DNA from: Alphaproteobacteria bacterium
GTDB taxonomy: Bacteria; Pseudomonadota; Alphaproteobacteria; UBA828
Assembly (NCBI GenBank): GCA_022826665.1
Contig: JAJDUK010000100.1
Location: 1-42,118 of the forward strand
Reading direction: 5' to 3'
DNA: 42,118 nucleotides
Shown in pieces: positions 3,469 to 42,118 of this stretch. The notes under the pieces are model-generated. The model had not been told where the DNA came from and made no database searches. It saw only the letters and a program-made list of their open reading frames with translations. Positions within the stretch are counted from its first letter, which is position 1. Each line of letters begins with the position of its first letter. The position numbers and the translations under genes are program-made.

Positions 3469-5823
3469 TCACACCTCGCCCGGCTTGGCCATGCGGTAGC
3501 CGACGCCCCGCTCGTTGAATATGTAGATGGGGCGCGCCGCGTCGTCGCCGAGCTTCGACCGGAGCTTCATCACGAAGGCGCGCACGGACTTCCCGTCGCC
3601 GGCGTTGCGCGCGCCCCATCCCTGGCGGAGCAGTGAATCGGTGGTCACCACCCGTCCGGCGTTGACGGAGAGGATGCGCAGCAGCTCGTACTCGGTGGCG
3701 GTGAGCGCCACCGCGCGCCCGTCCACCGTCACCCGGCGCTGGTCGTAGTCGATGGCCAGCGCGCCGAGCACGAACGGCTCGGGTTCGGCGCGGCTGCGCA
3801 GCGCCGCTCCGACCCGCGCGGTGAGCTCGGTCGGCGAGAAGGGCTTGACGATGAAGTCGGTGGCGCCGGCCTCGAAGGCGCGCGCGATGGTCTCGTCGCG
3901 GCCGTAGCCCGAGATGAAGATGACCGGCAGGTCGGTGAGCTCCGGGACCTCGGCCATGAGCTCGATCCCGCCGGTCCCGGGCAGCATCAGGTCGAGCAGC
4001 ACGAGCTGCGGCTTCTCGGCGCGGACGAGGGCGGCAATCTCGCCCGGTTCGGCGGTGACCCGCACGGCGTAGCCCGCCTCGGTGAGCGCGTCGCGCACTG
4101 AGCGAAGCGTGTGCGGGTCGTCGTCCACGACGAGGATGCGCGGTTTCGCCGACGCATCGCCGGGCGGGCGCTTCGCAGCCGGCCGGGCCTTCGCACCCCC
4201 TTCCTGGCCTTCGACCACCGGGAGCGTGAAGATGAACCGCGCGCCCTGCCCGAGCCCGGCACTCTCGGCGCGGATGCGGCCCCCGTGCGCCTCCACCAGC
4301 CCCTTGCAGATAGCAAGTCCGAGACCGATCGCCTCGGTGCCGCCCTCGGCGTGGCCCCCGGTGAACGCGACATGCTTGCGAAAGAGCTGGCCCAGCATCT
4401 CAGGCGGCACGCCCCGCCCCTGGTCGGAGACCGAGACCGCGACGTGCGTCCCGTCGCGCGCCGCCTCCACCCGGACGGGAGAGGATTCCGGAGAGTGCCG
4501 GGCGGCATTGGAAAGCAGGTTATTCAGCACCTGCACGATGCGCTGGCGGTCGGCCATCACCCCTGGAAGGTCGGGCGGCAGGTCGATCGAGATCGTGTGT
4601 CTGGCACCGCCGCTCAGGAAGGTGTTGCGCGCCCGGTCCACGAGCGCAGCCACGTCGGAGGGCTCGGGATCGACCGAGAGCGTCCCCGCCTCGATGCGCC
4701 CAGCGTCGAGCAGGTTCCCGATGAGCCCCTGCATGTGGTCGGCCTGGGTGTCGATGATGCGGAAGAACTGGTCCACCTCGGCCTGCGGCAGGGCGGGTGC
4801 GGCGCTGCGCACCGCAGCCACCGAGCCCTTGATGGCCGCCAGCGGCGTGCGCAGCTCGTGGCTCACCATGCCCAGGAACTCCGCCCGCAGGCGCTCCAGC
4901 TCCCTGATCGGAGCCAGATCCTGCATGGTGACGACCACCGACGCCACGGTGCCGTCCTCGGCGCAGATCGGCGTTCCGTTGACCAGCATCGACACGCTCC
5001 GTCCGTCGGGCACCGAGACCTCGATCTCCTCGGCCCGCACCGTTCCGGAGTTCTTCAGCTCCTGCGCAACCGAGAGTCGATCGAGCGTCACCTCGCGCCC
5101 GTCGGCAAACCGGAGGGTCGATTTCCCCAACAGTTCATCGCCGGAGCAGCCCGGCGTGCGAAGGGGCTCGACGATGCGATTGGCCTCCCGGTTGGACGAC
5201 ACTGGCTCTCCGGTGCGGGCGTCGAACACCACCACGCCCACCGGCGAGGTGTCGATCAGGGCCTCCAGGTCGGCCCGGGCGCGTTGCTCGTCGCGGTGGG
5301 CGCGGGCGTTGGCAATGGCCGTCGCCGCCTGCGAGGCGAAGAGCATCAGCACCTCCTCGTCCTCGTCGGTGAACTCTGCAGCGCCCTCCTTCTCGACGAG
5401 GAAGAAGTTGCCGATCTGCTTGCCCCGGTAGCGCACCGGCATCCCCTGCAGGGTCTTCGACGATATCGGGTCAGGGGAGATACCGAGGTCGCGCAGGTAG
5501 GCCGGCAGATCCGCGACCCTCAGAGGTCCCGGCAATTCGGGCAGATGGGCGAATAGCCGGGGAACGACGGACGTCTTGAGGAACTGGCGCCACTCGTCGG
5601 AGGTGCTGCCCGAGGTCACGAACTCGCGCATCTCGCCGGCCTCGTCGATGGTGGCGATGACGCCGTAGCGCGCGCCGGTGAGCGCACAGGCGCTGTCGAC
5701 GACCTCCTGGAGCACGGTGGCGAGGTCGAGGCTGGCATTGGTGCGCAGGATGGCCGCGGTGAGCGTGGAGATGCGCGCCTCCAGGGCCTGGAGTCGGCGT
5801 TGGGTCTCGTCGGGACCGTTCAT
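3469..5823 (-). CDS. Hybrid GAF-PAS histidine kinase fused to receiver and OmpR-type winged helix
   Basis: A 784-residue protein that carries a whole two-component pathway on one chain. In order: a GAF-like sensor (about 15-165), a PAS-like region (about 180-300), a dimerisation/phosphoacceptor domain with MVSHELRTPL (His322), an HATPase domain with glycine boxes such as DQGRGVP and GLGLAICKGL (about 430-530), a receiver with acidic VVDDD, phosphoacceptor Asp near 611 in LLDLMLPG and the conserved Lys in VKPFSP, and a C-terminal OmpR/PhoB winged helix (about 690-784) with YELLRILS and RGVGYRM. No membrane segments are visible, so it is probably cytoplasmic and senses a soluble cue. Kinase-to-DNA-binding fusions are uncommon but known (the one-chain hybrid two-component type). 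Its first 40 residues are closely matched by a truncated paralog at 41858. Target promoters cannot be deduced. Confidence 0.9.
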   Translation of the reverse strand: MNGPDETQRRLQALEARISTLTAAILRTNASLDLATVLQEVVDSACALTGARYGVIATIDEAGEMREFVTSGSTSDEWRQFLKTSVVPRLFAHLPELPGPLRVADLPAYLRDLGISPDPISSKTLQGMPVRYRGKQIGNFFLVEKEGAAEFTDEDEEVLMLFASQAATAIANARAHRDEQRARADLEALIDTSPVGVVVFDARTGEPVSSNREANRIVEPLRTPGCSGDELLGKSTLRFADGREVTLDRLSVAQELKNSGTVRAEEIEVSVPDGRSVSMLVNGTPICAEDGTVASVVVTMQDLAPIRELERLRAEFLGMVSHELRTPLAAIKGSVAAVRSAAPALPQAEVDQFFRIIDTQADHMQGLIGNLLDAGRIEAGTLSVDPEPSDVAALVDRARNTFLSGGARHTISIDLPPDLPGVMADRQRIVQVLNNLLSNAARHSPESSPVRVEAARDGTHVAVSVSDQGRGVPPEMLGQLFRKHVAFTGGHAEGGTEAIGLGLAICKGLVEAHGGRIRAESAGLGQGARFIFTLPVVEGQEGGAKARPAAKRPPGDASAKPRILVVDDDPHTLRSVRDALTEAGYAVRVTAEPGEIAALVRAEKPQLVLLDLMLPGTGGIELMAEVPELTDLPVIFISGYGRDETIARAFEAGATDFIVKPFSPTELTARVGAALRSRAEPEPFVLGALAIDYDQRRVTVDGRAVALTATEYELLRILSVNAGRVVTTDSLLRQGWGARNAGDGKSVRAFVMKLRSKLGDDAARPIYIFNERGVGYRMAKPGEV

Positions 5824-8530: not shown

Positions 8531-8689
8531 CGCGGCGGTGCAGGCGCCGTTCACTCAGGATTGCCCGCATCGTCGCGCGGACAGAATGGGAATTCGGCGA
8601 GCGAGCAGGCTCAGCTTGGTACTGGTTTGGTCGCCGTTGCCGGGGACGGACCCAGGCTTGATCGGCATGGTGCGGGCACAATTGAGGCG

Positions 8690-10585
8690 ATGACGAATTC
8701 AGAATACATGGAGATCGGGCCGCTTGAGGTGAGCCTGGCCGTCGCGCGCGACGACGAGCCTGCCGACGCGACGGTCGCCGATCTTGTGGTCTCGCCGGAT
8801 GCTGCGGCGATCGCGCGCCGTGGGCAGCGTGGTTATGCCAATCCCGACGAACTCGACCGAGTGCTGCCGCCCAACGGGACCGGGGCCGATTGCATCGATC
8901 ACACGATGACGGTGCCGTCCGAGCCGGGCATGGCCGTGACCGACTGCGATGTGGCGGAAGAGGGCGCCGGTGAAGGGCCTCCGCCCGCCGTCGTGGCTGC
9001 GATCAACGGGGACGATCCCGGCCGCACCGATGATGCGGTGGCAATGTATCTGCGCGACATAAGGAGCGCCGCACAGCTGACAGGCGAAGACGAGGTGACG
9101 CTCGCGAAGCGGATGGAGGCGGGGCGCCGTGCCGTGCTGGCCGGACTTGGCGAGAGCCTGGTCGCAATGCAGGCGGTGGCCACGTGGGGCGAGGCAATCC
9201 GCGCGGGCTCGCTGAGGCTGCGTGATTTGATCGACATAGAGGCGACCCACGACGGTGAAGCGGCAACGGCCGGACACGGTTTCCCAGGTGAAGATGGCGA
9301 TGACGACAGGCCCCCGCTGACGGCGATGGAAGCGGCGGTCCCGTCCCGCGTCATGGCACCCTTGGAAGAGATTGCGTCCTCGTACGGGAAGCTGCGCCGG
9401 CTTGAAGCTCTGCGCATCGAACTGGCGCGGAAGAACCGGAGGCTCACGGCGTGGCAGGCGAGACGGCGGCGCGAGTTGAAGCGCGATCTCGCGTCGTCGA
9501 TGCAGAACCTCTACCTGACCGACGCGCGCATCGAGATGCTCGTGGTCGGCCTGCGGGAAGCGGCGGGGCGCTTGCAGCAGTACGAGAGCACGCTTCTGCA
9601 GCTGGCCGTCGGGTGCGGCGTATCGCGGGAGGCGTTCCTGAAGCAGCACGAGGGCCGCGAGCTCGAGTCGGCATGGCGGTCACGCGTGGGACGGTTGCGG
9701 GGCGAAGGATGGACAACGCTGGCCAGAAAAAGGCGTCCCGAGGTCCTCGCGCTACGCCGGGAGATTCTCGCGCTCGCCCGCGAGAGCACAACGGAGCCGT
9801 CGGAGCTCCGGCGCGTTGCCGCTGCGGTCCTGGCCGGGGACCGCGAGGCGCGGCAGGCCAGGGAGGAAATGATCGAGGCCAACCTGCGCCTCGTGGTCTC
9901 GATCGCCAAGAAGTACCAGCATAGGGGTCTGCCGCTGGCGGACCTGATACAGGAGGGCAATGCCGGCCTCATGAAGGCGGTGGACAGGTTCGAGTATCGC
10001 CGGGGCATAAAGTTCTCGACTTACGCCACCTGGTGGGTCCGGCAGTCGGTCTGGCGGGCGATCGCCAATTCTGGACATACGATCCGGGTTCCCGTGCACA
10101 CGTTCCAGACGGTCACCAGACTGAGGCGGGTCTCCTGGCTCATGGGCCGGGAGCTCCGGCGCCCGCCCATGCCCGAGGAGCTCGCCGAGCGCATGGGTAT
10201 GTCGGTCGACAGGATACGCAGGGCGCTGGAGGCAGCACGGGCGGTGACGGAACCGGTCAGCCTGGAGATGCCTATCGACGACGACGACGAACGGAAGCTC
10301 GGTGACCTGATCGAGGACAGGGAGGCGGTGCAGCCCTTGGACACGGCGATCGGCTCAGATATGCGGGAGACGCTGACGCGCGTGCTGGGGAGCCTGGCGC
10401 CAAGGGAAGAGCGAGTGCTGCGCCTACGCCTTGGCATCGGCACGGATACCGACCACACCCTTCAGGAAATCGGCGAACAGTTCTCGGTCACGCGGGAGTG
10501 CATCCGCCGGATCGAGGCCAAGGCGCTACGGAAGCTCGGGAGACCTTCGCGTGCGCGCGTGCTGCGGAGTTTTCTCGACCGCTAG
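8690..10585 (+). CDS. Divergent RpoD-like sigma-70 factor
   Basis: About 631 residues with the full plan of a primary-type sigma factor: a region 1.1-like segment ([17 protein letters not shown]), region 1.2 (AVAMYLRDI), a long acidic non-conserved region, region 2 ([31 protein letters not shown]), region 3, and region 4.2 ([20 protein letters not shown]). It should direct core RNA polymerase to a set of promoters. Positions that contact promoters in the E. coli protein differ: the residue at 440 is Trp instead of Thr, 425 is Ile instead of Tyr, and in helix 4.2 Arg586 and Gln589 are Cys and Arg. This argues for a specialised paralog rather than the housekeeping RpoD. The ATG at 8690 is chosen; a TTG at 8561 would add 43 residues without family resemblance. 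The upstream STAS gene suggests post-translational control. Confidence 0.88.
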
Positions 10586-10864
10586 GCGCGGTCAAGAGCG
10601 TAGCTTGGCCGCTTGGTATCCGCGCGACGCTTGGAACGCCGCCAGCCGCAACCGGATTCGGCAAGCGAACGGCGGTGCTGACTGCCGAAGGGTGTCATGG
10701 CGGCAGTGTAGTCGACATCGGCAATCCGAAGCGATCGGTTTCCATAACGACACACCGAAGTCGCGACAAACATGTCCAGAGTGTGGAATGGGGCCCCTGG
10801 CGCCTACCCCATTGGCACCGATACCGGTCTTACCAGGATGGGGAACTCGGCCTCGACCCGATTC
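10586..10864. other. Intergenic region before the IS21 end
   Basis: Nothing recognisable was found between the sigma factor stop and the terminus of the IS21-family element. The missing C-terminal half of the nearby integrase was looked for here on the minus strand and is not present. Confidence 0.4.
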
Positions 10865-11004
10865 TGTCAACGGCGGTGGGATTATGCGCCAGAGCGGCGG
10901 AGTAAAATTGTACCACTGGCACGGCTGCAGCTTTTCCCCGTAGCCCACGGGAGGGCCCCGCGCGCGGGGCGACGCGCCCTCGGCGCGGCTGGCGGCGGCC
11001 CGCG
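10865..11004. repeat. IS21-family terminal region, copy 1
   Basis: A 140-base stretch matching 41979-42118 in the same orientation with ten mismatches. It begins TGTCAACGGCGG and contains GGAGTAAAATTGTACCAC and a perfect GC-only palindrome GCCCCGCGCGCGGGGC. The second copy is cut by the window end, so the full length of the repeat is unknown. Confidence 0.85.
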
Positions 11005-11042: not shown

Positions 11043-11844
11043 TTATTCGGAGGGAGGCCGGTGCCGCGATCGGCTCTGCTTGAGCCGGTAGCTTTCGCCG
11101 TTCATCTCCAGGATATGGACGTGGTGGGTGATGCGGTCGAGCAGCGCGCCGGTGAGCCGCTCGCTGGCGAAGACCGTCGTCCATTCCTGGAAGGGCAGGT
11201 TGGAGGTGACGATGGTGGCGCTGTTTTCGTAGCGCCGGCTGAAGACGTCGAACAGGAGCTCGCTTCCGGTCTGCGACAGGGGCACGTATCCGAGCTCGTC
11301 GACGATCAGCAGGTTCACCTTGGCGAGCTGGTCCTGGAAGCGGAGCAGTCTCTTCTCGTCGCGCGCCTCGATCATCGCGTGGACCATCTGGGAGGCGGTG
11401 GTGAAGCGGACGGCGAGGCCCTTCTGGCAGGCGGCGAGGCCCAGAGCCAGGGCGATGTGCGTCTTGCCGACGCCGCTCGGGCCCAACAGGATCGCGTTCT
11501 CGCGGCGCTCGATGTAGTCGCCGCGCGCGAGGTCGAGCACCAGCGTTCGCCTGCTCACTCGGACCAGTGGCGTTCGCAGGCTCAGTGTTGAGGCTCGGAA
11601 TGGCCTTGAAGTCGAAGCTCTCGAGCTGTTTGACGACGGGGAAGCGGGCCTGCCTGATGCGGCGTTCGACCAGGCGGCGCTCGCGGTCGATCATCTCCAT
11701 CTCCACCAGCCGGGCCAGGAACTGCACGTGATCCAGGCCCTCGTTGGCGCACTGGCGCGCCAGTTTCTCGTATTCCCGCAGGAAGGTCGGCAGCTTGAGC
11801 TTCTTCAGGTGGTGCTCAAGCAGGATGCGGGGCGCTTCAGCCAT
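11043..11844 (-). pseudogene. istB: IstB-like ATPase of IS21-family element, frameshifted
   Basis: The transposition helper ATPase of IS21. The N-terminal part (LEHHLKKLKLPTFLREYEKL, then FDFKAIPSLN) and the C-terminal part (Walker A GPSGVGKTH, Walker B LLIVDELGY, and TSNLPFQEW) are both well conserved but lie in different frames. Around 11552-11594 about 43 bases replace what is normally roughly two codons, a net insertion of about 37 bases, with the 8-base GCGAACGC repeated inside it. A GTG at 11558 could start a shortened protein of 171 residues that still has the P-loop. The ATG at 11844 overlaps the stop of the transposase frame, as in intact IS21 elements. Confidence 0.8.
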
Positions 11845-13732
11845 GGCCGGCCCCCGCGGCGAGCAGGGAGGCGTAGTCGGCGGTGCGGGTGGCGGCGACG
11901 AAGGGTTGGGGCAGGTGCGGATAGCGCGCCAGATCGAGATGCGCGGGCCGCCTTTCGATGCGTGCCAGCAGCAGGTGCTTGACGGCATCGAAGCCGATCA
12001 GGCGCCGCTTCACCGCGTCCCGCACCGCGGCCGTCACCTGGGTCTCGGGGAAGTCCTCCAGCAGGCGCAGCACCTGGATGTACTCGCGCTTGCCGCGCGG
12101 CCCGAAGCGGGCCTCAAGGAGGCGGCGCAGCGCGTCGAAGGCCGGATCGAGCTTCCATCCGCGCAGCGGCGCCGCCTGGTCCAGCGCGCCCGGCTTCTTC
12201 TCCAGCAGCGAGAGATAGTGCAGCGGGTCGTAGACCACATTGCCGCGGACGTAGCTACGTCGATGGCGGGCGACGATCTCGGCGCCGAGCGCGATCTCGA
12301 CGCGGTCGACATAGCCCTTGATCGTCACCTTCTTGTGGGCGTGCACCGTCGGCGCCGAGTAGTCCACCAACCGGTAGCGCACCAGGGAGGTCGACGAGAC
12401 TTGGCCCGGCACGTGCTCGCAGGCCTCGAAGGGGGCGGCGGGCCGGTCTCGCAACGCGTCGAGATCGGCCAGCAGCGATGACGCCTTCTCGCCCTGCTCC
12501 AGTGCGTCGAGCCGCTCCAGGCAGCGCGCCAGCAATCGCTCGTTCAGAGCGTCCAGGTCATGCACCTTCGGGACCGGCACCATGAACTTGCGCCGCGCCG
12601 TCTTCACCAGGGCTTCCACCTTGCCCTTGTCGTTCCCCTTTCCGGGCCGGCCGAAGCGGTCGCGGAACAGAAAGTGCGACTGCAGATGCGTGAACGCCCG
12701 GGTGCGCTGACGGGTGCCGTCGCCCAGGATCCGCGCCACCGCCAGCGTCGTGTTGTCATAGAGGATCGATCGCGGAACCCCGCCGAGGAAGGCGAAGGCG
12801 CCGACATGGCCGTCGAGGAAGGCCTCCGTCGTCTCCCTCGGATAGGCCTTCACGAACCAGACGTCGGAGTGCGGCAGGATCAGGCGGAAGAAGGCCACCT
12901 TCTCGCGACGGCCCGCGACCTCGACCGTCGCCTCGCCGAAGTCGACCTGGGCATGGCCGGGCGGGTGATGAAGCGGAACGAAGGCCTCGCGGTAGTAGCG
13001 CCACTTGAGGGAGACGATCTCGCCCTTGCGGCAGCCGGTGAGCAGCAGCAGCCGGACGATCGCCACGGCCTGCGGGTGGTCGGCCTCATGGCGTGCCAGC
13101 ACCTTGCCCAGCCGGCGGAACTCGGGGGTCGACAGGAAACGCTCCCGCCCCCGGCGGCGATAGCGCCTGATGCCCGTGCACGGATTGGCTCCCGCCGGCC
13201 GGTAGCCGTAGATCTCGGCCTGGCGCATGATGACCGACAAGATGGGGGCTGACCGGTCGGCCGATGCTGGGGTATTGTGGAGCGATGCGAACCAGCGCCG
13301 GACGTCGCGGACGTCGATGTCGGCGATCGGGCGCCCTTCGAACCAGGGCAGGATATGGTTGCGGTAGTAGTTCCGGTTGACCTCGAGGGTCGAGGGCTTC
13401 CAGTTCCGGGCGTAGCGCCGGAACACCTCGTCGGCAACGGCCTCGAACAGGATGTCGGGCGCCGCCGCGGTCTGCCCGCCGGTTCCGTCTCTGATCGAGG
13501 CCAGCATCGCCCTGGCTCGCTCGCGGGCCTCGTCCAGGCCGATGGCTCCGGGCTCGCCGACGATCTTCCAGACTCTGCGACCGTCATGCTGACTATGTAT
13601 GAAGTATCGCTTTGCGCCGGAGGGCAGGACTCTTGTGCCGAAGCCCTTGAGTTCGCGGTCTCGGACGTCGTATGTGGACCTGCGGGGCTTGAGCGCATCG
13701 ACACGGCGTTGGCTGAGGCGGGCGGTTGCCAT
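11837..13732 (-). CDS. Chimeric open frame: tyrosine-integrase N-terminus fused to IS21 IstA catalytic domain
   Basis: A 631-residue uninterrupted frame with two unrelated halves. Residues 1-244 are a phage-type integrase: the DUF4102 arm-binding domain (LSQRRVDALKPR, ELKGFGTRVLPSG), the SAM-like core-binding domain (about 95-180), and the start of the catalytic domain with the first catalytic arginine in LLLTGCRKGEI. From residue 245 the sequence is IstA: GHAQVDFGEA (Asp264), RSILYDNTTL (Asp326) and GNDKGKVEAL (Glu373) supply a complete DDE triad, followed by the IstA C-terminal domain. The normal IstA helix-turn-helix N-terminus and the integrase His/Arg/Tyr residues are lost. The ATG start is the integrase start. 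Whether the protein is made, or is active, cannot be told; the simplest reading is a deletion fusion between an island integrase and an inserted IS21. The open frame across the join is unexpected for plain decay. Confidence 0.8.
   Translation of the reverse strand: MATARLSQRRVDALKPRRSTYDVRDRELKGFGTRVLPSGAKRYFIHSQHDGRRVWKIVGEPGAIGLDEARERARAMLASIRDGTGGQTAAAPDILFEAVADEVFRRYARNWKPSTLEVNRNYYRNHILPWFEGRPIADIDVRDVRRWFASLHNTPASADRSAPILSVIMRQAEIYGYRPAGANPCTGIRRYRRRGRERFLSTPEFRRLGKVLARHEADHPQAVAIVRLLLLTGCRKGEIVSLKWRYYREAFVPLHHPPGHAQVDFGEATVEVAGRREKVAFFRLILPHSDVWFVKAYPRETTEAFLDGHVGAFAFLGGVPRSILYDNTTLAVARILGDGTRQRTRAFTHLQSHFLFRDRFGRPGKGNDKGKVEALVKTARRKFMVPVPKVHDLDALNERLLARCLERLDALEQGEKASSLLADLDALRDRPAAPFEACEHVPGQVSSTSLVRYRLVDYSAPTVHAHKKVTIKGYVDRVEIALGAEIVARHRRSYVRGNVVYDPLHYLSLLEKKPGALDQAAPLRGWKLDPAFDALRRLLEARFGPRGKREYIQVLRLLEDFPETQVTAAVRDAVKRRLIGFDAVKHLLLARIERRPAHLDLARYPHLPQPFVAATRTADYASLLAAGAGHG
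13001..13732 (-). pseudogene. Tyrosine recombinase (island/phage integrase), 3' half deleted
   Basis: This is the integrase part of the chimera, about 244 codons of a family that is usually near 400. It ends just after the box I arginine (TGCRKGEIVSLKW), so the catalytic His-x-x-Arg and Tyr are absent and strand exchange is impossible. It lies about 120 bases from tRNA-Pro and reads away from it, on the 5' side of the tRNA. The more usual arrangement has the integrase beyond the tRNA 3' end, so which tRNA or site it served is uncertain. Confidence 0.8.
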
Positions 13733-13853
13733 GGATTTTCCTCCTGCGTTCGGTTGCAGCCGGGGAGCAACCGCGGACCAGTTGCACGTTTTCCGACCGG
13801 GACAGGAGGAAAAAACGACGCTATTTCAATGGGTTAGCACCTGAGGTGCGGTA

Positions 13854-13930
13854 CGGGGTGTGGCGCAGCCAGGTAGCGCATCTGCTTTGGGAGCAGAGGG
13901 TCGCCGGTTCAAATCCGGCCACCCCGACCA
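13854..13930 (+). tRNA. tRNA-Pro (UGG)
   Basis: A 77-base cloverleaf with encoded CCA end. The acceptor arms CGGGGTG and CACCCCG pair. The anticodon arm TCTGC-TTTGGGA-GCAGA gives anticodon TGG, and the T arm has the GGTTCAAATC loop. A small hairpin (GCACC-TGA-GGTGC) lies about 15 bases upstream. No clear promoter hexamers were found in front. Confidence 0.95.
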
Positions 13931-41978: not shown

Positions 41979-42118
41979 TGTCAACGGCGGCGGGAATATG
42001 CGCCAGAGCGGCGGAGTAAAATTGTACCACGGTCTCGGCGGTAGCTTGTCCCCGTAGTCCACGGGAGGGCCCCGCGCGCGGGGCGACGCGCCCTCCGCGC
42101 GGCTGGCGGCGGCCCGCG
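41979..42118. mobile_element. IS21-family terminal region, copy 2 (runs off the window)
   Basis: The first 140 bases match 10865-11004 in the same orientation with ten mismatches. They begin TGTCAACGGCGG at the exact point where the kinase fragment loses homology, so this is the true tip of the element. By analogy istB and istA should follow to the right, read leftward. Confidence 0.85.

Follow-up and report, generated by a model that had tools for sequence, protein, structure and literature searches.

The window analysed here, a stretch of 42,118 nucleotides of contig JAJDUK010000100.1 (assembly GCA_022826665.1) from an alphaproteobacterium of the UBA828 lineage, contains on its minus strand an open reading frame (ORF) in which the N-terminal part of a tyrosine integrase runs into the DDE catalytic core and C-terminal part of IstA, the transposase of the insertion sequence (IS) family IS21. 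The chimeric ORF (11837..13732) comprises 631 codons from an ATG at 13732 to a stop at 11837 without any internal stop, and its composition was established from the frame itself and from matches to Pfam and to the IS21 transposase profile NF033546. The original prediction had placed a 631-codon frame at exactly this position, leaving its strand unstated.

The join between integrase and IstA

In the chimeric ORF, Pfam recognized the arm domain Arm-DNA-bind_3 at residues 6-84 (8.7e-9), which we take to be of the DUF4102 type, the core-binding domains Phage_int_SAM_3 at residues 96-151 (1.3e-8) and Phage_int_M at residues 96-178 (4.6e-7), and Mu-transpos_C_2 at residues 431-502 (8.4e-18). NF033546 (transpos_IS21) matched with 170.3 bits at a cut-off of 160, the match covering profile positions 104-283 of 294 only. 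Judged by these scores, the presence of two independent high-scoring homologies within one frame is far beyond chance. The DDE triad is whole, as had been claimed, with Asp264 in QVDFGE, Asp326 in LYDN and Glu373 in GKVEAL by motif reading, and Glu373 was aligned with Glu233 of the IstA from IS5376 (PDB 8q4d), a residue named as catalytic in a passage of PMC10122671. Also, a sequence reading revealed that the Shine-Dalgarno-like word AGGAGG of the integrase gene (13740..13745, minus strand) is retained upstream of the ATG, and a similar ribosome-site word occurs at the same place in the eight integrase relatives compared.

The integrase half (12986..13732, minus strand; Pfam and alignment) comprises residues 1-249, that is the arm-binding domain, the core-binding domain and the start of the catalytic domain, and is 78-80% identical to the integrases of loci L051, L052, L053, L054 and L064 from this genome and genus. 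In what follows, L-numbers are fetched loci, G000 is the window's own genome with C-numbers for its contigs, and other G-numbers are other genomes. The half had been described before as arm- and core-binding domains (residues 1-244); it is not limited to these domains, as it retains about 65-70 residues past the core-binding domain, including TGCR235KGE with R235, which we take to be the first catalytic arginine of the integrase. Thus, the cut on the integrase side lies away from any domain edge. The five relatives continue to HDCRHTYAS or HDLRHS and then to LGH motifs, whereas the chimera leaves the integrase at residue 249 of about 375 and lacks the HxxR, LGH and C-terminal tyrosine motifs of its relatives, all of which have catalytic roles in tyrosine integrases. 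In L051, L053 and L054 the first integrase, counted from its ATG, has a length of 374-376 codons, and its last codon is followed after 7 bases by the start of a second integrase. Both the second (partner) integrase and the C-terminal half of the first were sought in the window, and neither is left. Broken integrases of the same family exist elsewhere in the genus, truncated in L032 and L033 and with an internal gap in L055, and in the same genome an integrase on contig C85 is split and carries a stop.

The IstA half (11837..12991, minus strand; alignment and NF033546) starts at R248 and comprises the DDE core (D264, D326, E373) and the C-terminal region. It is 55-64% identical to its relatives over about 380 residues, with 63-64% for the best full-length IstA among matches that include the best 80 of 504 relatives; the full-length matches are mostly alphaproteobacterial records. 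About 120 N-terminal IstA residues, which form two helix-turn-helix (HTH) domains, are gone from the chimera. In agreement with this, the common part is preceded by 104 or more residues in 79 of 81 relative IstA frames, and positions 1-103 of NF033546 are unmatched in the chimera. In the alignment with 8q4d, query residue 258 corresponds to chain residue 117, which places the join, by extrapolation, at about chain residue 107 and just after HTH-2, a domain delimited as residues 55-104 in part of PMC10122671. The same source, as far as its relevant passages go, describes the N-terminal HTH parts of IstA as binding the IS ends and building the tetramer. Published structures of IstA and IstB show that the parts absent here are responsible for binding the ends, for keeping the tetramer together and for coupling to IstB.

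The join was located by alignments and codon counts at CGC GAG (R248-E249; 12986..12991, minus strand), which is read the same way in both parents. On the integrase side, similarity can be followed to about Glu249 (base 12985/12986); on the IstA side it sets in at Arg248 (base 12991), as it does at residue 248 in most IstA relatives. The boundary proposed earlier, between residues 244 and 245, is therefore slightly off when the similarity limits of both parents are considered. Over the join the chimera reads TAC CGC GAG GCC TTC; integrase relatives have W-(R/C)-(D/F)-Y-R-E-G and IstA relatives mostly x-R-E-x-F-V-P-L at this place. RE occurs at the join in 60 of 81 IstA frames, and 33 of 80 codon sets have the word CGCGAG there, counts that rest on a motif anchor which one of the 81 frames does not have; among the integrase relatives searched for the join codons, CGCGAG was present in five of six, with L055 outside the pattern. 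At the DNA level, similarity ends at window base 12985 (query 2426) in six of the nine best integrase places and 2, 20 and 81 bases earlier (query 2428, 2446 and 2507) in the remaining three, and the fetched integrase copies likewise have their limit at 12985. Since the join sits in a 6-nt word common to both parents, one deletion at a short direct repeat would account for it.

istB, IS ends and the insertion site

Downstream of the chimeric ORF, the gene for the partner protein IstB is present in two pieces. The 5' part of istB (11593..11844, minus strand; Pfam and alignment) has 84 codons, encodes the N-terminal domain and overlaps the istA stop by 8 nt, the start of istB and the stop of istA both lying in ATGGCTGA. 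The ATPase part (11043..11558, minus strand) lies in another frame as a GTG-initiated ORF and matches positions 79-236 of the IstB_IS21 profile. Alignment with a copy from genome G004 (L058), which is 87% identical over 1.2 kb and spans the istA 3' end and istB only, revealed between the two parts an insertion region (11547..11585, minus strand) with a net gain of 37 nt that causes the frameshift. The insertion was considered as a repeated element, and its inner sequence of 35 nt occurred once in the genome with up to three mismatches allowed. When compared to the G004 copy, the ratio of nonsynonymous to synonymous substitution rates (dN/dS) was 0.07 and 0.15 for the two istB parts and 0.20 for the istA 3' end, and the low values for each istB part fit what a recent break would be expected to leave. 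In the original prediction, the coupled istB start had been taken as a sign of function. The overlap with the istA stop is indeed there; its support for function falls because istB is frameshifted downstream by the net 37-nt insertion.

The right terminal end of the IS (10865..10924, minus strand; alignment) reads TGTCAACGG... on the plus strand, and similarity to related copies stops at base 10865. Its inverted partner, the left end, was not found within the window in an ungapped test, in which the best candidate reached 16/25. Sister right ends are located at three contig ends (C21:1-229, C28:1-138 and window 41979-42118, the last 140 bases of the contig); they are nearly identical to each other and 89-93% identical to that of the fused copy. 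This distribution points to a multicopy sister IS21 element that was split at contig ends by its repetition, further copies of which are probably unassembled, and the fused copy would then be an older relic that has diverged from them. For the DNA at 10590-10864, a search of eight other genomes, including five of the genus, gave no match.

On the other side of the chimeric ORF lies a tRNA-Pro (TGG) gene (13854..13930, plus strand). Of the seven further genus genomes, six were fetched, and in all six synteny extends from base 13849 rightwards, on the 3' side of the tRNA, over 0.2 kb only in the case of L066, and breaks at 13849. On the 5' side of the tRNA those six relatives have a different neighbourhood that is common to them, partially so for L057 and L060. 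In the genome studied here this neighbourhood is found on contig C92 (G000:C92:20476-23531, L204), matched up to the tRNA edge with GTACGGGGT remaining. From the synteny break at the tRNA and the displaced neighbourhood on C92, it follows that the integrase stands at one end of foreign DNA inserted on the 5' side of tRNA-Pro. Integration beside the 5' end of a tRNA gene rather than its 3' end is unusual. Upstream of the integrase gene, about 100 bp are common to the relatives up to a GCACCT..GGTGCTAAC motif, beyond which the sequences mostly differ, a common flank being retained by L051 and L052; the loss of similarity past the GCACCT..GGTGCTAAC motif suggests that it marks the edge of the element.

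Origin of the frame and alternative readings

The original prediction had raised the hope that such fusions recur, and no second case was found among the genomes, plasmids, phages and IMG/VR entries searched, which are samples with the numbers of candidates given below. With the chimeric protein (P0001) as query, no other fusion was detected in 22 genomes of the order (E 1e-100) or in the best three candidates per genome from 385 genomes of the class (E 1e-60), both counts including the window's own genome, nor was it found in the seven other genomes of the genus. Some matches aligned past the join. Those on G002:C120 and C53 (query 1-352) are ordinary integrases (L052 and L064), those in G307 (query 4-351, 1-354 and 1-275) lie in frames of 380-408 aa, which are too short for a fusion, and that of phage phiAH14b (query 6-373, E 6e-6) is an annotated integrase. 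NF033546 was also combined with open-frame lengths in 22, 385 and 398 genomes, using the best six candidates per genome for the 385 and the best five for the 398. Among the matches listed, other frames of more than 600 aa occurred in G379 (812 aa), G564 (679 aa) and G533 (656 and 625 aa), and none of these in the fetched loci carries both profiles. The 812-aa frame (L179; G379:C1:7879000-7884000) contains an IstA without its first part and an extension of 482 aa without a Pfam match, and is probably a mere open frame in GC-rich DNA. In tblastn searches, 4592 of 72,556 plasmid records and 18 of 50,697 phage records matched, and none had one place covering at least 80% of the query, 30 of the plasmid and 15 of the phage records being listed. 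IMG/VR yielded four loci, all matching from query residue 238 or later, and no exact copy of the junction. The window and 212 loci together gave 3664 open frames with a length of 120 aa or more. The IstA profile was found in 171 of these (129 unique) and the integrase profile in 53 (35 unique), and both profiles occurred together in seven rows only, all of which represent the window's own place. No integrase-IstA fusion was apparent in the papers listed, as judged by titles and the beginnings of abstracts.

We consider it very probable (about 0.9) that the frame is a pseudogene fusion left by a single deletion during the decay of mobile DNA. As synteny shows, foreign DNA ending in tandem integrases inserted 5' of tRNA-Pro with its first integrase beside the tRNA. 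An IS21-family element presumably lay in the same orientation, either downstream of the integrase array or within it. A deletion would then have occurred between two CGCGAG words, taking away all sequence from integrase residue 250 up to and including the second HTH of IstA, together with the left IS end, and would have kept the frame by chance; the breakpoints are those described above. For a deletion that joins two open frames, a frame staying open through the join would be expected in about one case in three. An example in which one gene runs into istA is provided by a Bosea metagenome-assembled genome (L138:3002-5146), where the reading frame of a DUF4394 gene (1.2e-49) continues into that of a whole IstA; such in-frame fusions can therefore arise by chance. 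In contrast to the chimera, from which the HTH part is gone, the IstA of L138 is whole and includes it. Deletion during decay had already been named as the simplest origin, a proposal borne out by the 6-nt common word, the missing left end, the loss of the integrase C-half and of the partner integrase, and the istB frameshift. Because of the common word, the missing IS end, the missing partner integrase, the frameshifted istB, the sister copies and the absence of a second case, a chance deletion product in dead mobile DNA is clearly the best account.

If made from the integrase ribosome site, the protein would carry an arm- and core-binding part on a DDE core, would lack the domains for end binding and tetramer formation, and would have only one IS end to act on at this place, its IstB partner being broken. 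In all likelihood it does nothing, and a retargeted transposase function for the fusion, which would be young, is unlikely. It had been suggested that the fusion gives a DDE transposase a new DNA-binding specificity. This suggestion is not sustained, as the lost IstA parts are those that, in the portion of PMC10122671 concerned, bind the ends and build the tetramer.

Several observations weigh against a mere relic. The frame has no stop over 631 codons, the triad is whole and the ribosome site is retained, and the break on the IstA side lies near a domain boundary, where a functional swap would require it. The dN/dS of the integrase-half branch (0.28-0.35) is close to that of its relatives (0.23-0.31). 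Furthermore, of 144 near-invariant IstA columns the chimera departs from no more than 4; in a leave-one-out test over 59 IstA relatives (16 of 81 frames were dropped for lack of the motif anchor and duplicates were merged) the median was 0 changed columns, three relatives had more than four, and the maximum was nine. These values fit a young fusion or a weak constraint, are compatible with use of the protein as well, and do not decide between these readings. A dN/dS comparison with intact relatives had been proposed together with the original prediction. Values were obtained; they do not discriminate between selection and recent origin, because the nearest full-length IstA is 63-64% identical and because the integrase comparison covers mostly time before the fusion. 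An AlphaFold2 model of the whole chimera (35 sequences) had a pLDDT of 69.4 and a pTM of 0.42. Ten-residue means were 75-94 in the arm and core-binding domains, except for 55 at residues 81-90, and 82-91 in the region of the C-terminal barrel, and confidence was below 50 at residues 231-263 and 319-372, which, in the absence of a control model of a whole IstA, is no evidence against folding.

It is in our view very improbable that the fusion protein is made and used, be it to direct strand transfer to new targets or, which is the more plausible variant, to act as a dominant inhibitor on sister IS21 copies or sibling integrases of the same cell. One form of such use would be a domesticated regulator, a catalytically idle protein that dampens movement by binding att sites or by joining sister IstA. 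Targets for it would be present, namely a full-length integrase of 78% identity on C21 and the three sister right ends, and the coding frame is uneroded. However, the frame is confined to one genome and was not found in the seven others of the genus, and the HTH contacts of the IstA tetramer, as described in sections of PMC10122671, are lost, so that we give this idea hardly any weight. Even less credit is due to a working chimeric transposase, in which the arm- and core-binding part of the integrase would replace the HTH pair of IstA and send the DDE core to att sites. It could appeal to the open frame, the intact triad, the ribosome site and the overlapping istB start, as well as to the arm, core-binding and C-terminal barrel regions that AlphaFold2 models with confidence; it is opposed by the left IS end not being in the window, by the lack of recurrence in the searches and, with little weight, by the low AlphaFold2 confidence at residues 231-263 and 319-372. 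Finally, an assembly artefact that joined reads or graph paths of an integrase copy and an IS copy might be conceived, as both halves come from repeated families, the draft assembly consists of 106 contigs and has 4% contamination, the ends of three contigs fall within related IS copies and the sister istA is unassembled, leaving no comparison at the join. Such an artefact is scarcely credible. A common word of about 6 nt would be too short to join reads, and the divergence from other copies is about 20% for the integrase half and 7-11% for the IS right end. The join is also 13 kb away from the contig end; past the tRNA there is synteny with the genus, and a stretch on the opposite side matches a single place in the genome.

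Read as a deletion product, the frame shows by base-level breakpoints how decaying mobile DNA can yield open, domain-mixing frames that resemble new enzymes. The clean join, the whole triad and the ordinary dN/dS could mislead annotation, and the relic is given away by the frameshift in istB, the lack of one IS end and the absence of a second case. If the protein were active after all, it would represent a natural exchange of domains between tyrosine recombinases and the DDE family, and we know of no described element with such a swap.

Related systems and neighbouring genes

When compared to IS21 elements and their IstA (NF033546; IS5376, PDB 8b4h and 8q4d), the chimera is the same in the DDE core, the C-terminal region and the istA/istB overlap and differs in that it lacks the HTH pair, its left end was not found and its istB is frameshifted. 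With tyrosine integrases of the DUF4102 type it shares the arm and core-binding domains and the upstream region, whereas a complete catalytic domain and the tyrosine nucleophile are missing.

At several places in the genome, integrases of this type stand next to each other in rows of two to four (L051:2979-5270, L053:3984-6269 and L054; G000 contigs C84, C56, C57, C62, C34 and C82). In L053 and L054 the pair of first and second integrase genes is common over 2390 bp at 96% identity, the flanks being unrelated, which resembles a GInt tandem-integrase end. RIT elements are likewise tandem-integrase elements. GInts, as far as the pertinent part of PMC5385486 describes them, have three integrases at one end and a variable cargo. 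In L051, L053 and L054 the likeness is that the integrase opens a tandem pair and that the DNA past it is dissimilar. In contrast to GInts, which are composed of ginABCD (three integrases and ginD), two integrases were seen in these three loci, where no search for a third integrase or for ginD was made, and the window retains only part of the first integrase.

To the left of tRNA-Pro, the window encodes at 8561-10585 (plus strand) a sigma-70 factor of 674 aa with regions 1.2 to 4; this gene was not seen at that place in the six relatives, for which 2.7-5.5 kb were compared. A further gene at 3469-5823 (minus strand) combines GAF, PAS, histidine kinase, receiver and Trans_reg_C domains in one protein and thus amounts to a two-component system in a single chain.
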